A DNA stretch of 61,229 nucleotides from assembly GCA_009840285.1 (NCBI GenBank), contig VXOF01000045.1, forward strand, positions 1 through 61,229, read 5' to 3'. The DNA comes from Nitrospira sp. SB0662_bin_26 (GTDB taxonomy: Bacteria; Nitrospirota; Nitrospiria; Nitrospirales; UBA8639). Positions 35,300 to 40,650 of the stretch are shown piece after piece (positions within the stretch are counted from its first letter, which is position 1; each line of letters starts with the position of its first letter). The translations under genes and the position numbers were made by a program. Under the pieces are notes generated by a model that was given only the letters and a program-made list of their open reading frames with translations, searched no databases and was not told where the DNA came from.

Positions 35300-35629
35300 T
35301 TATTCAGCGGCGGGTTGCGGCAGCGAATCGCGGAGTTCTTCCAAGTTCTTGATGACAAGCAGGTCGCCGTTGGCGGTGGCGACGTCGATGCCTTGCGCGC
35401 AGACCGTGCGGCAGCGGTCGGGTTGGCCGGCCTGTTTGAGGGATTGCGCCAGGGCCAGGATGGCCGCGGAGTAGGTGGGTTTGACCTTGATGCAACTGTC
35501 GAAGGCGGAGATGGCCTCTTCCCAATTTTCATCCCCCATGTACGCCTTGCCCAACCCGAACCAGAGGGTCTCGTCATTGGGGTCCATCTGTAAGACTTTT
35601 TTGAATTTCTCGATCTTGGGGTCTGCCAT
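35300..35629 (-). CDS. Small TPR protein
   Basis: A 109-residue cytoplasmic protein starting MADPKIEKFKKVLQMDPNDE at the ATG at 35629; the longer open frame upstream has no coding character and includes repeat DNA. About two TPR units are visible: ETLWFGLGKAYMGDENWEEA with AISAFDSCIKVKPTY, then SAAILALAQSLKQAGQPDRC. Probably a protein-interaction adaptor. It converges on the dehydratase with a 5-bp gap. Confidence 0.8.
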   Translation of the reverse strand: MADPKIEKFKKVLQMDPNDETLWFGLGKAYMGDENWEEAISAFDSCIKVKPTYSAAILALAQSLKQAGQPDRCRTVCAQGIDVATANGDLLVIKNLEELRDSLPQPAAE

Positions 35630-35794
35630 GCCGTGTCCTGTCGAATGGGTTGGACGTTCCTGGTGCGCTTTTTGTTCGCTGACTGTAGCAGAGGGGCCGT
35701 CGCGTTGTCTAACCACGGACCCTGTGTTACGATCCGGTTCCCGTTTTCGCCTCTGATATCCTGGTGTGAAAATAAACCGATGAGACCCCAATTT

Positions 35795-35840
35795 GTCATT
35801 CCCGCGCACGCGGGAATCCAGGTTTTTTTTCGAGGATGAC
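35795..35840. repeat. Dispersed hairpin repeat, copy D (shortened)
   Basis: Starts GTCATTCCCGCG with hairpin CCCGCG/CGCGGG and GAATCCAG, then a run of eight T and a remnant TCGAGGATGAC that matches the right end of copy C. It looks like an element with the second half mostly deleted. It lies 28 bp before the deacetylase-fold gene. Confidence 0.75.
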
Positions 35841-35867: not shown

Positions 35868-36812
35868 ATGGGCCGCGTGGGAATCGTGACGCATCCGGCG
35901 TATCTGGAACATGACATGGGCCGGTCGCATCCGGAGTCGCCGGAGCGGCTGCGGGCCATTGTCGCGCGACTCGAATCCACCGGCACGATGTCCATGTTGA
36001 CCCGGATTGAGCCACGGAACGCCGAACCGGAATGGATTACCCGTGTTCACGATCCGGCCTACGTGGGGCGGCTGGTAGAGAGAGCTCCGACCACGGGCTA
36101 TGCCTCACTCGACCTGGACACGTCCCTGTCGCCCGGTTCGTTGCCCGCCGCGTCTCTCGCCGCGGGCGGGGTCTTGGAGGCCGTTGACGCCGTCATGGCT
36201 GGCCGGGTCGATCAGGTCTTCTGCGCGGTTCGTCCGCCCGGTCACCATGCCGAGGCCAGCCGCGCCATGGGGTTTTGTCTGTATAATAACGTGGCCGTCG
36301 CGGCCCGGTATCTCCGGGAGCGTCATGGTCTCGCTCGCGTGCTGATCGTGGATTGGGACGTGCATCACGGGAACGGTACGCAACACGCGTTTGAGGACGA
36401 TCCCTCCGTGCTGTTCTTCAGCACGCATCAGTATCCCCATTATCCCGGGACCGGGGCGGAGACGGAACGCGGCCGGGGCCGTGGAGAAGGGGCGACCATC
36501 AACGTCCCCCTGTACGGGGGTCAGGGTACGGATGAGTACCGGGACATTTTTCATCAGGTGTTGGTGCCGGCCGCGGCGGCGTTTCGACCCGAGTTCGTGT
36601 TGATTTCCGCCGGGTTTGATGCGCACCGGGATGATCCCCTGGCGAGCATGGGCATCACGGATGAAGGGTACGGTGAACTCACCCGCATCGTGGGGTCCAT
36701 TGCTCAAACCCATTGTCAGGGTCGCATCGTGGCTTGCCTGGAAGGCGGCTACGACCTGCGGGCGCTTGCCGCTTCGGTTGAACAGCATATTCTCGCGTTG
36801 ATGGACACGTAG
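35868..36812 (+). CDS. Histone-deacetylase-fold amidohydrolase (AcuC/APAH class)
   Basis: 314-residue zinc hydrolase removing acetyl groups from lysine or polyamines. Family motifs are in place: SHPESPERLRAI, the catalytic His pair RPPGHHAEASRAMGFCLYNN (about 124-143), zinc ligands DWDVHHGNGTQ (about 164-174) and SAGFDAHRDDPL (about 247-258), and ACLEGGYD near the end. Length and motifs are typical. It is the first gene of a very tight run: the pentaheme cytochrome starts 3 nt after its stop. The substrate is unknown. Confidence 0.92.
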   Translation: MGRVGIVTHPAYLEHDMGRSHPESPERLRAIVARLESTGTMSMLTRIEPRNAEPEWITRVHDPAYVGRLVERAPTTGYASLDLDTSLSPGSLPAASLAAGGVLEAVDAVMAGRVDQVFCAVRPPGHHAEASRAMGFCLYNNVAVAARYLRERHGLARVLIVDWDVHHGNGTQHAFEDDPSVLFFSTHQYPHYPGTGAETERGRGRGEGATINVPLYGGQGTDEYRDIFHQVLVPAAAAFRPEFVLISAGFDAHRDDPLASMGITDEGYGELTRIVGSIAQTHCQGRIVACLEGGYDLRALAASVEQHILALMDT

Positions 36813-36815
36813 ACC

Positions 36816-38171
36816 ATGGCCAAACCGCGAACAAGACGACGACATCCCGGGCGGCTGTTGGCTTTGCTGGGGCTGCTGCTGGCCGTTCCGGGCCTGTTCT
36901 ATTATTTCTATACGGAGGTCCGGCCAACCGTGATTTTCGGATTGCGTGACGATTATGCCCATGCCATTCCGTTCCAGCAGATCCCGGCGGGCCTGGACTC
37001 TTTGACCGCGGAGTCATGCGGGCAATGCCATCAGGCGATTTATGAGGAATGGAAAACCAGTATTCATGCCCATGCCTATCGGGACCCGTTTTTCCAGGCC
37101 TATTGGAAAAAAGACGGGTACGTTTGGGTCTGTCTCAACTGCCATACGCCGTTGGAGAATCAGCAGCCCACGCTCATCAAGGAGATCCCGAACAACCGGG
37201 TGGAAAAGGCGGTCGAGGTCGATAACCCGGACTACGATATGGCCTATCAGGCTGAAGGGGTCACGTGCGCGGCGTGTCACGTGCGCGACGGCAAGATCCT
37301 GGGGCCGTTTGACGATTCAGCGGCGCCTCACCCGACGGCATATGATCCCGCCTTTCGCACGACGGCAATTTGTTATCGATGTCACAACGTGGTCTCCGGC
37401 CCCTTCCAGTTCTATAACGTAGGCCCCTGCGGCACCTACGCGGAATATGAGGGGGAGTTTTTCATGAAGGAGCAGGGGTTCACGTGCCAGCATTGTCACA
37501 TGCCGGAAGTTTCCCGTCCGGTGGCCGAGGCCGGGCCCATTCGGCAGGGCCGCCGCCATCTCTGGCGCGGCGGGCATGATCCTGACATGATCAAACGGGC
37601 CGTTGCGATCCAGGTCCGGTCCGATCCTCCCGACCCCAAGCAAGGCGAAACCGTCAGGATGACCTTGACCCTGATCAACGCCGGGGCCGGGCACAAGATT
37701 CCCACGGGCGATCCCGATCGTCACTTTACCGTGGAATTCTACGTCAAGGATCCGATGGGCGCGATTCTCGCTCAGCAAACCGACACGATGGGGCGATGGA
37801 TTCTCTGGCAACCCGTGATTCTGGAGGTGTATGACAACCGCCTGCTGCCGTTGGCCAGCCGTGATTATGAGTTTTTCTATGACATTCCGGAAGACCGGTC
37901 GGATCTGGTGGTGGAAGCCCGGGTCCGGTATCATATTCTGACCGACGGCCAGCATGCCATGTTGCGGGAAACCTATGGGTTGCGGTCGGATGACCCGTAC
38001 CGGTATACGATCTATACGCGTCAATTTCCGCTGAATGACACATTGAAAACGGCGTTGCATGCGGAAACGCCGGTCGAGACACGGTTGGGATGCGCCGCTC
38101 CGGAGAACGGGGTTCATCCCGAGGAATTCGCCCCCGCGCGGGGTCATCACGATCTTTTAACCATAGGTTGA
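36816..38171 (+). CDS. Membrane-anchored pentaheme cytochrome c
   Basis: 451 residues. A basic N-terminus (KPRTRRRHPGR) and one transmembrane segment (about 14-32, LLALLGLLLAVPGLFYYFY) put the rest in the periplasm. There are five CxxCH sites: CGQCH 68-72, CLNCH 106-110, CAACH 151-155, CYRCH 186-190 and CQHCH 224-228. The arrangement recalls the cytochrome c554 / multiheme nitrite-reductase superfamily. Residues about 260-400 have no heme site and look beta-rich (VRMTLTLINAGAGHKIPTGD). The run of His in HAHAYRD may give distal ligands. Electron donor and acceptor are unknown. A rhodanese gene starts 3 nt downstream. Confidence 0.88.
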   Translation: MAKPRTRRRHPGRLLALLGLLLAVPGLFYYFYTEVRPTVIFGLRDDYAHAIPFQQIPAGLDSLTAESCGQCHQAIYEEWKTSIHAHAYRDPFFQAYWKKDGYVWVCLNCHTPLENQQPTLIKEIPNNRVEKAVEVDNPDYDMAYQAEGVTCAACHVRDGKILGPFDDSAAPHPTAYDPAFRTTAICYRCHNVVSGPFQFYNVGPCGTYAEYEGEFFMKEQGFTCQHCHMPEVSRPVAEAGPIRQGRRHLWRGGHDPDMIKRAVAIQVRSDPPDPKQGETVRMTLTLINAGAGHKIPTGDPDRHFTVEFYVKDPMGAILAQQTDTMGRWILWQPVILEVYDNRLLPLASRDYEFFYDIPEDRSDLVVEARVRYHILTDGQHAMLRETYGLRSDDPYRYTIYTRQFPLNDTLKTALHAETPVETRLGCAAPENGVHPEEFAPARGHHDLLTIG

Positions 38172-38174
38172 TTT

Positions 38175-39044
38175 ATGTGGAGCACGTACCTCATCGATAC
38201 GGAAACCCTGGCCCTCAATCTTGGCCGGGAGGATTTGGTGATTATCGACGTGCGCGGCCAGGGCGCGTACACCTCGCACATCCCCGGGGCCGTGCATAGT
38301 ACCTGGCACGAATACAGTGATCCTGAAGCCACGGCCAAGGGCCTGTTGGATCCCGACGTCGCCCGGTTGGAGAAGCGGTTGCAGGCCCTGGGCGTCAACA
38401 ATTCGAGCGACGTGGTAGTGTACTCCAATCCCTTTGATAATTGGGGCGACGAAGGCCGGATGTTTTGGATGTTGCAGTATCTCGGACACAAGAGCGTCAA
38501 GGTCCTGGACGGAGGCTGGCCCAAATGGACGTTCGAACATCGACGCTATGAACATGACCCGGTTCGTCTCAAGCCGGGCAACTTTACGGCGTCGGTTCAG
38601 CCGGACGTGATGATCGACAAACAGGAATTGAAAAAATTGGTCAAGAGTCCCCATCGGGACACGGTGATCGTGGATGCCCGGAGCGTCGAGGAATACGCGG
38701 GTAAGGAAATCGACGGGTTGCCGAGGCCGGGGCATATCCCGTCCTCGGTCAATATCCCCTGGAACGGTTTTCTCCGTCAGGACGCGACGGTCAAGCCCGT
38801 GTCCGCTCTTCGGGAAATGTTTCATGCGTTCGGCATGCACGAACAACAGGAGGTGATTACCTATTGTTTGGGCGGTCTTCGGTCGGCGTGGGTGTATTTT
38901 TTACTGAAGTTGGCGGGATACGAGCGGGTGCGGAATTATCCGGGATCCTGGTGGGAGTGGAGCCGGGATTTTGCGGCCCCCGCCGAAAAAGACATGCAAT
39001 TGCTCTATCAGGTAACGGGCAAGGCCGAGGGAGAGGCGTCTTGA
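38175..39044 (+). CDS. Two-domain sulfurtransferase (rhodanese, thiosulfate or mercaptopyruvate type)
   Basis: 289 residues with an inactive N-terminal rhodanese domain (about 1-125, VIIDVRGQGAYTSHIPGAVH) and a catalytic C-terminal one (about 150-280). The active-site loop is TYCLGGLRSAW with Cys231; CxGGxR favours thiosulfate:cyanide sulfurtransferase over mercaptopyruvate enzymes (CGSGVTA). No signal peptide, so it is probably cytoplasmic. It is the third gene of the deacetylase-cytochrome-rhodanese run, 3 nt after the cytochrome. It could link sulfane sulfur to the redox module, which is inference. Confidence 0.9.
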   Translation: MWSTYLIDTETLALNLGREDLVIIDVRGQGAYTSHIPGAVHSTWHEYSDPEATAKGLLDPDVARLEKRLQALGVNNSSDVVVYSNPFDNWGDEGRMFWMLQYLGHKSVKVLDGGWPKWTFEHRRYEHDPVRLKPGNFTASVQPDVMIDKQELKKLVKSPHRDTVIVDARSVEEYAGKEIDGLPRPGHIPSSVNIPWNGFLRQDATVKPVSALREMFHAFGMHEQQEVITYCLGGLRSAWVYFLLKLAGYERVRNYPGSWWEWSRDFAAPAEKDMQLLYQVTGKAEGEAS

Positions 39045-39115: not shown

Positions 39116-39415
39116 ATGATGAAGAATATTCTCTTAGGCGGGTTATTGATTTTGGCAGTGTTTGCATTGGTGGCCACGTCGGGGTGCTCCGAAGAGAAAG
39201 CGCCGGAGAAAGCAGCGCCTGAGAAGGCGGCACCTGCGGAAGCAGCGCCTGAAGAGGCGACCCCTGCGGAGGCGGCCCCTGCGGAGGCGGCCCCTGCGGA
39301 GGCGACCCCTGCGGAGGCGACCCCTGAAGAGGCGACCCCTGCGGAGGCAGCCCCTGCGGAGGCGGCCCCTGAAGAGGCAGCACCGGCAGAGGCAGTAGAA
39401 GGGAAGTCGGATTAA
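39116..39415 (+). CDS. Ala/Pro/Glu-repeat lipoprotein
   Basis: 99 residues from the ATG at 39116 (AGGAG 7 nt upstream). The signal peptide LLGGLLILAVFALVATSGC ends in Cys24 with a usable lipobox. The mature protein is almost entirely a five-residue repeat, A-(A/T)-P-(A/E)-E, about 14 copies, then EGKSD. At DNA level this is a 15-bp tandem repeat. Such A/P/E chains are extended and probably span the periplasm as a spacer, like the Pro-rich part of TonB. No catalytic domain. It comes 71 bp after the rhodanese and 14 bp before the SmbP gene. Confidence 0.8.
   Translation: MMKNILLGGLLILAVFALVATSGCSEEKAPEKAAPEKAAPAEAAPEEATPAEAAPAEAAPAEATPAEATPEEATPAEAAPAEAAPEEAAPAEAVEGKSD
39215..39398 (+). repeat. 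15-bp tandem repeat inside the lipoprotein gene
   Basis: About 12 copies of a unit like GCGGCCCCTGCGGAG, with GCGACCCCTGAAGAG variants, all in frame. The unit length is divisible by three and lacks stop triplets in every frame, so open frames appear on both strands here. Copy number is likely to vary between strains. Confidence 0.9.
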
Positions 39416-39429
39416 CAAGGAGGTGTAGA

Positions 39430-39771
39430 ATGGCGAAGAAGTTTTTCATTGCCGCATTGGCGATGACGGCGTTGTTCGTATTGGCGGCCGCACCGGCGTT
39501 TGCCGATGGGAATCCGCACGTGGCCGAAGCGATCGCGCACGCGGAAGAAGCGGCCAAACATGGCGGCATGGGGCATGCCGATGCCGTGGTCGGCCATGCG
39601 CAGGAAGCGTTGAGCCATGCCGAAATGGCTCAGAAAGAAGTCAAGAATCCTCATCTTGATGAGGGCGTCAGCGAATTGAAGGAAGCCATCGCGCATGGCG
39701 GCCAGGGACATGCCGAGGTGGCGACCAAACATGCGAAGAGCGCCGTCATGCATCTGAAGGAAGTCCATTGA
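39430..39771 (+). CDS. smbP: SmbP-like periplasmic metal-binding protein
   Basis: 113 residues. Signal peptide 1-25 (FIAALAMTALFVLAAAPAFA). The mature chain has 12 His in about 88 residues, placed in a heptad-like pattern (HVAEAIAHAEEAAKHGGMGH ADAVVGHAQEALSH), with an internal repeat KEAIAHGGQGHAEVATKHAK. This matches small metal-binding protein SmbP of Nitrosomonas, a four-helix Cu/Ni/Zn binder. AAGGAGG lies just before the ATG. A strong terminator follows. It is probably co-transcribed with the Ala/Pro/Glu lipoprotein. Confidence 0.88.
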   Translation: MAKKFFIAALAMTALFVLAAAPAFADGNPHVAEAIAHAEEAAKHGGMGHADAVVGHAQEALSHAEMAQKEVKNPHLDEGVSELKEAIAHGGQGHAEVATKHAKSAVMHLKEVH

Positions 39772-39858: not shown

Positions 39859-40650
39859 ATGAAAGTCGGGTATTTTCAAACGCATCCTGAATTCGGGGAA
39901 GTGCAACGCAATATCGATCAGGTGGCTGTTCGCCTGGGTGCGGTGGACTGCGAACTGCTCGTCCTGCCGGAATTCGCGTTTACCGGATATCAGTTTGTCG
40001 ATCAAGAGGAAGTTCGCGAGTTGTCGGAACCGGTTCCGGCCGGCCCGACGACCCAAGCCTGTCTGGAACTGGCCCGCCGGCACCGGATGCATTTGGTTGT
40101 GGGGTTGCCGGAAAAGGCGGGTGGGGAGTGCTACAATTCGGCGATCGTAGTGGGGCCTTCGGGGTTTCTGGGGAGTTACCGCAAAACGCATCTGTTTTGT
40201 GAGGAAACGTTGTTCTTCAGCCCGGGCGACTCGGGGTTCCGGGTGTGGGACATCGGCCAAGCCCGCATCGGGGTCATGATCTGTTTTGACTGGTACTACC
40301 CGGAATCCGCCCGTACCCTTGCTGTACAGGGGGCAGATATCGTGTGCCATCCGTCGAATCTCGTTCTGCCGCATTGTCCTGATGCCATGGTGACGCGGTC
40401 CCTGGAAAACCGCGTTTTCAGCATCACGGCCAACCGGGTCGGCCGGGAAGACAGGGGGGGCAAACCGCCCCTGACCTTCATCGGAAAAAGTGAAGTCGTT
40501 TCACCGACGGGCCGCATTCTTTCCCGGGCTTCCGCCGATACGCCCGAACTCACGGTCGTCGAAATCGATGTCGACGATGCCCGCAACAAGTCCATTAATC
40601 CCTACAATGAGTTATTGAGAGACCGCCGCCCCGGATATTATTGCTCCTAA
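39859..40650 (+). CDS. Carbon-nitrogen hydrolase (nitrilase superfamily)
   Basis: 263 residues. The Glu-Lys-Cys triad is visible: E38 (LVLPEFAFTGY), K109 (YRKTHLF) and C142 (MICFDWYYPES). The Glu in FEGE-like CEETLFF is also present. Members cleave amides or nitriles. The short form resembles N-carbamoylputrescine amidase or omega-amidase relatives, but the substrate cannot be named. Cytoplasmic, with no signal peptide. It starts after the smbP terminator, and its TAA overlaps the uppP stop codon on the opposite strand. Confidence 0.88.
   Translation: MKVGYFQTHPEFGEVQRNIDQVAVRLGAVDCELLVLPEFAFTGYQFVDQEEVRELSEPVPAGPTTQACLELARRHRMHLVVGLPEKAGGECYNSAIVVGPSGFLGSYRKTHLFCEETLFFSPGDSGFRVWDIGQARIGVMICFDWYYPESARTLAVQGADIVCHPSNLVLPHCPDAMVTRSLENRVFSITANRVGREDRGGKPPLTFIGKSEVVSPTGRILSRASADTPELTVVEIDVDDARNKSINPYNELLRDRRPGYYCS

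Follow-up and report, generated by a model that had tools for sequence, protein, structure and literature searches.

The pentaheme cytochromes ExtKL of Geobacter and the PHCs of cable bacteria form a family that has an immunoglobulin-like domain and structural homology to cytochrome c552. The PHCs resemble the AvECN nanowire and are possibly catalytic (PMC11976967). In Geobacter the extHIJKLMNOPQS cluster, which codes for the rhodanese ExtH, a porin, and the pentaheme ExtKL, has been tied to selenite and tellurite reduction (PMC5877670). A cytochrome of this group was found between the genes for a deacetylase-fold protein and a rhodanese in Nitrospira sp. SB0662_bin_26, on the 61,229-nucleotide stretch of contig VXOF01000045.1 that we analyzed (the window). 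The three genes lie on the plus strand. HDAC (35868..36812) encodes a class II-like histone-deacetylase-fold hydrolase of 314 amino acids without a signal peptide, CYT (36816..38171) a periplasmic, membrane-anchored pentaheme cytochrome of the PHC/ExtKL type with 451 amino acids, and RHOD (38175..39044) a cytoplasmic two-domain rhodanese/sulfurtransferase. A sequence-only reading of the window had given the same positions, with 3-nt gaps, and had recognized the same kinds of protein; both points were borne out exactly by the open reading frames and by the presence of PF00850 in the first, five CXXCH motifs in the second, and two PF00581 stretches in the third.

CYT has a transmembrane segment at about residues 14-32 and five CXXCH motifs within residues 68-228. 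The N-terminal hydrophobic segment has no obvious cleavage site and is a predicted anchor. All five heme motifs were present in 37/37 operon, 18/18 ectopic, and 10/10 outgroup CYT sequences. The ExtKL model NF040886 aligned with residues 65-374 of CYT over model positions 45-402 of 423 (E 2.5e-17) and matched 43/43 relatives, covering both the heme domain and the C-terminal Ig-like domain. The score of 62.6 bits is below the equivalog cut-off of 250 for this model, which places CYT in the PHC/ExtKL group but not with ExtKL itself. A PDB profile search retrieved the pentaheme c552 of T. tepidum (5ze8) and MccSep (9wt8), and a Pfam search gave weak multiheme matches only. Assignment as the nitrite reductase NrfA, which is also pentaheme, was rejected, the PF02335 score being 19 bits and below 24.1. 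CYT is thus homologous to the pentaheme PHC/ExtKL group. It shares with Geobacter ExtKL, the cable-bacteria sPHC, c552, and MccSep the five CXXCH motifs, the CxxCHxxIxxxWxxSxHA sequence at the first heme, a C-terminal Ig-like domain with GHxxPTG, and a near full-length profile match. It differs from ExtKL and MccSep in having no selenocysteine, Asp299 aligning with U325 of MccSep, and from the PHC/ExtKL group in its uncleaved N-terminal anchor.

Outside the CXXCH motifs, His84, His172, His248, His254, His293, and His373 are invariant or nearly so, outgroups included. All of 65 cytochromes share a non-heme cysteine, Cys205 (GPCGTY), which is also aligned in c552 and MccSep. As judged from this conservation, the six histidines and Cys205 would be enough for six-coordination of all five hemes. 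An AF2 model of full-length CYT had pLDDT values mostly below 50 in the heme domain. The model of residues 260-415 showed a sandwich of at least seven strands, most with pLDDT above 84, and Foldseek returned Ig-like and related sandwiches only, albeit as weak matches (TMq at most 0.40). The C-terminal domain (about residues 260-415; 37593..38061, plus strand) is an Ig-like β-sandwich in these models. The domain, unassigned in the sequence-only reading, is therefore assignable, such a domain being known from the PHC family.

HDAC matched PF00850 with an E value of 5e-105, and its closest solved single-domain protein is 5ji5 (280 bits). The His-126/His-127 dyad, the zinc ligands Asp-164, His-166, and Asp-251, and the catalytic Tyr-295 were 100% conserved in 85 operon HDACs. 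By its residues HDAC would be a zinc-dependent, class II-like enzyme; it has all zinc ligands, the His dyad, and the Tyr in common with bacterial class II HDAC-like deacetylases, from which it differs in genomic setting. An HDAC10-like acetylpolyamine deacetylase would have an acidic gatekeeper after (G)DP, and this assignment was rejected, as HDAC has a 100% conserved Leu258 at what we take to be the gatekeeper position.

RHOD has its active cysteine, Cys231, in the sequence CLGGLR of the second domain, the N-terminal domain having no cysteine. Cys231 and Arg236 were 100% conserved in 88 sequences. In its inactive N-terminal domain and active C-terminal cysteine RHOD is like the two-domain thiosulfate/3-mercaptopyruvate sulfurtransferases (3aax, 8k55, and 1uar). 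Its active loop is C[TL]GG[VL]R, in contrast to CRKGVT or CGSGVT, presumably the corresponding loops of those enzymes. RHOD is not an ExtH-type rhodanese (44 bits against a cut-off of 200), and SseA-type scores were better. All three proteins keep the sequence motifs of intact cofactor or catalytic sites. No export signal was found in the HDAC or RHOD sequence, and so both are predicted to be cytoplasmic, CYT being predicted to be periplasmic.

CYT was sought in 98 relatives and was present in 88 (74/77 among good-quality genomes). Gene order was compared at 110 Nitrospirales loci from two collections, a sample of best-scoring loci in which the operon form is over-represented. HDAC lay directly 5′ of CYT in 108/108 loci with enough flank, and RHOD was downstream of CYT in 110/110, in the same order and on the same strand. 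The earlier reading had staked its claim on the three genes being neighbors in related genomes, and this they prove to be. The HDAC-CYT gap has a median of 1 nt, is often -4 nt, and is between -20 and 30 nt in 102/108 loci; given this spacing and the same order and strand at 110 loci, the arrangement is not due to chance. The CYT-RHOD gap has a median of 23 nt and is bigger in a few genomes. At two loci (L059 and L123) more than 1 kb separates CYT from RHOD. The operon is real, old, and specific to Nitrospirales, and has been kept by almost all of the order. Beyond the block, conservation of the genes PALP, UK233, Xer, and BacA is largely confined to near relatives, whereas the block itself is order-wide; this pattern serves as an internal control for synteny.

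Six Nitrospirales genomes were without CYT by search. HDAC and RHOD were side by side, about 50-110 nt apart, in five of them; in the sixth (G263) HDAC and RHOD are at contig ends, and the absence of CYT may be an assembly gap. A further 15 genomes have CYT elsewhere with HDAC and RHOD adjacent, the ectopic gene of one (G056) lying 44 kb off on the same contig. CYT has thus left the operon or been lost in about 20 genomes in which HDAC and RHOD are still adjacent. Two genomes (G246 and G079) carry an operon CYT plus an ectopic CYT. The ectopic copies of G079 and G250 are frameshifted. In a tree, 18/18 ectopic CYTs fell into one clade (100/100), a single Nitrospiraceae clade nested within the operon CYTs, so that the operon state would be the ancestral one, and a single relocation is enough to account for the observations. 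Tree and synteny together indicate that the HDAC-CYT-RHOD trio is ancestral in the order. HDAC and RHOD are a fixed pair, out of which CYT moved once and from which it was lost in some genomes without the pair being broken. CYT seems still to be useful, since most lineages with a CYT-less operon keep the gene elsewhere.

A gene for a VTT-domain membrane protein directly precedes the ectopic CYT in 8/20 loci (for example L144, L153, L155, L158, L169, and L171). A comparison of the neighbors of ectopic CYTs and outgroup HDACs revealed no common theme. No HDAC or rhodanese gene was found near the CYT homologs elsewhere in the phylum, which are 37-54% identical. HDAC occurs across the phylum, including genomes without CYT. 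Outgroup HDAC neighbors include glyoxalase-family or metallo-β-lactamase genes (L182, L186, L187, and L188) and also TPR genes.

The conserved cluster reaches past the trio to a divergent TPR gene, SMBP, and a nitrilase gene in most loci. The gene for the small TPR protein (35300-35626, minus strand; assigned by TPR families) is the neighbor of HDAC at nearly every locus where the flanking sequence is long enough. The SmbP-like small metal-binding protein SMBP (39430-39771, plus strand; PF16785, E 9e-27) is encoded 3′ of RHOD in 98 loci and, given the gap of about 90 nt in relatives, is probably on a separate transcript. The carbon-nitrogen hydrolase NIT (39859-40650, plus strand; PF00795), of the nitrilase superfamily, is conserved in position and scored 310 bits against NF040852, below the cut-off of 500. 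The gaps of these TPR, SMBP, and nitrilase genes are about 90 nt, in contrast to the tight spacing within the trio, and the genes were not seen at their usual positions in the f4 loci L174-L176; the trio is therefore probably the older core. Between RHOD and SMBP, a lipoprotein of about 99 amino acids (39116-39415) consists mostly of APAEAAPEEA-type repeats, and looks like a lineage-specific insertion because RHOD and SMBP are about 90 nt apart in most relatives.

Alignment of TPR-HDAC spacers identified a divergent promoter-like element (35682-35733, both strands) that occurs once in the window. Its plus-strand half is TTGTCT (35705)-17-TACGAT (35728) with a TG extended -10, and its minus-strand half, toward the TPR gene, is TAGACA-18-TACAGT. 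The plus-strand pattern TTGTCTA-N13-TGnTAnnnT was present in 86/100 loci and 0 times in shuffles. Both directions were found together in 83/100 loci, the second extended -10 using the same TTGTCTA core. The element was not found at HDAC loci outside Nitrospirales or at the three f4 loci. It looks like a pair of divergent σ70-type promoters sharing one -35. A perfect palindromic repeat, GTCATTCCCGCGcacGCGGGAATCCAG, present as a single copy in the window, lies at 35795-35821, in what is presumably the 5′ leader of the operon; we would liken this repeat to Neisseria dRS3 or nemis ends.

The earlier proposal that the three genes are read from one mRNA is supported by the tight or overlapping gaps and by the conserved promoter-like element upstream, and a sequence scan found no plus-strand terminator-like sites between the three ORFs; the trio would thus form one transcription unit. 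Searches of the literature for the HDAC-CYT-RHOD combination found nothing relevant and no description. Each protein is of a known kind, but the operon, with its order-wide distribution and a promoter-like element of its own, is undescribed as far as these searches reach.

We favor, with a probability of about 0.62, the view that the locus is a Nitrospirales-specific co-expression unit with HDAC and RHOD as its fixed core and an ancestral but removable PHC electron-transfer cytochrome. The three proteins would be co-expressed for a shared condition and not as steps of one pathway. CYT, anchored in the inner membrane, would relay electrons in the periplasm to or from a partner via five (probably bis-His) hemes, HDAC would deacylate lysine residues on cytoplasmic targets, and RHOD would move sulfane sulfur in the cytoplasm. 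A direct substrate link between HDAC and CYT would be neither needed nor likely. The persistence of the trio across the order and the -4 nt HDAC-CYT overlaps nevertheless speak for a functional link that is closer than co-expression, and, with PHCs listed as possibly catalytic (PMC11976967), CYT may act in catalysis instead of electron transfer. We are doubtful of a further reading, in which the locus is a Nitrospirales signature module: a lysine deacylase and a sulfurtransferase would form an obligate pair in the cytoplasm, a periplasmic PHC would be expressed along with them, and together they would tie protein acylation to the handling of sulfane sulfur (or selenium) and to electron flow outside the cytoplasm.

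An equally doubtful alternative is a sulfur/thiosulfate (or selenium/tellurium oxyanion) redox module in which RHOD and CYT act on the same chalcogen under regulation by HDAC. The homology of CYT to ExtKL, the combination of rhodanese and pentaheme genes in one conserved cluster here as in the Geobacter ext cluster for selenite and tellurite reduction (PMC5877670), and an outgroup CYT that overlaps a TauE/SafE gene all speak for it. Yet RHOD is of another rhodanese type and has no export signal, Asp299 stands where MccSep has selenocysteine, and RHOD is kept in genomes without CYT. Where the ext cluster has porin, Rieske, and cytochrome b genes, the Nitrospirales cluster has HDAC, SMBP, and nitrilase genes; none of the former was among the genes identified beside the operon, which is not a Geobacter ext operon. 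The sulfur or thiosulfate redox branch suggested by the sequence-only reading is not supported, given also the predicted cytoplasmic location of HDAC and RHOD as against the periplasmic CYT, the genomes in which CYT has separated, the homologs of CYT outside the order that have neither partner, and the lack of recognized sulfur-oxidation genes among the identified operon neighbors. The further suggestion in that reading, that HDAC deacetylates CYT, RHOD, or their product, draws on the intact HDAC active site and on the probable translational coupling of HDAC and CYT, but it is improbable, the least probable reading of all, given the different compartments of the two proteins, the phylum-wide occurrence of HDAC even without CYT, and the separability of CYT, though RHOD may still be a target. 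Conservation by inertia, with slowly rearranging genomes retaining neighbors to no functional purpose, would fit the departure of CYT from an otherwise unbroken block and the lack of an obvious shared pathway; we consider it rather unlikely, as PALP, UK233, Xer, and BacA are kept mainly in near relatives whereas the block is order-wide, the promoter-like element is conserved, and HDAC and RHOD remain together when CYT goes.

Nitrospirales, comammox included, dominate nitrite oxidation. A tie of the operon to this process was rejected, nxrA being neither necessary nor sufficient: nxrA-like DNA is present in three genomes without CYT (G252, G318, and G092) and was not detected in four f4 MAGs or in G079, all with CYT. 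G079 (L152/L156) is a complete, single-contig Nitrospiraceae genome without detectable nxrA-like DNA. The absence of nxrA from MAGs is weak evidence, since it was not found in the assembly of the window itself although a congener (G010) has it.

To the PHC family, which has until now been considered for Geobacter, cable bacteria, and T. tepidum, the Nitrospirales proteins add an order-wide branch that is anchored in the inner membrane. A cluster that is nearly order-wide, has a promoter-like element to itself, and has been assigned no function is an obvious subject for physiological work on Nitrospirales, for which the genomes without CYT or with an ectopic CYT are natural experiments.
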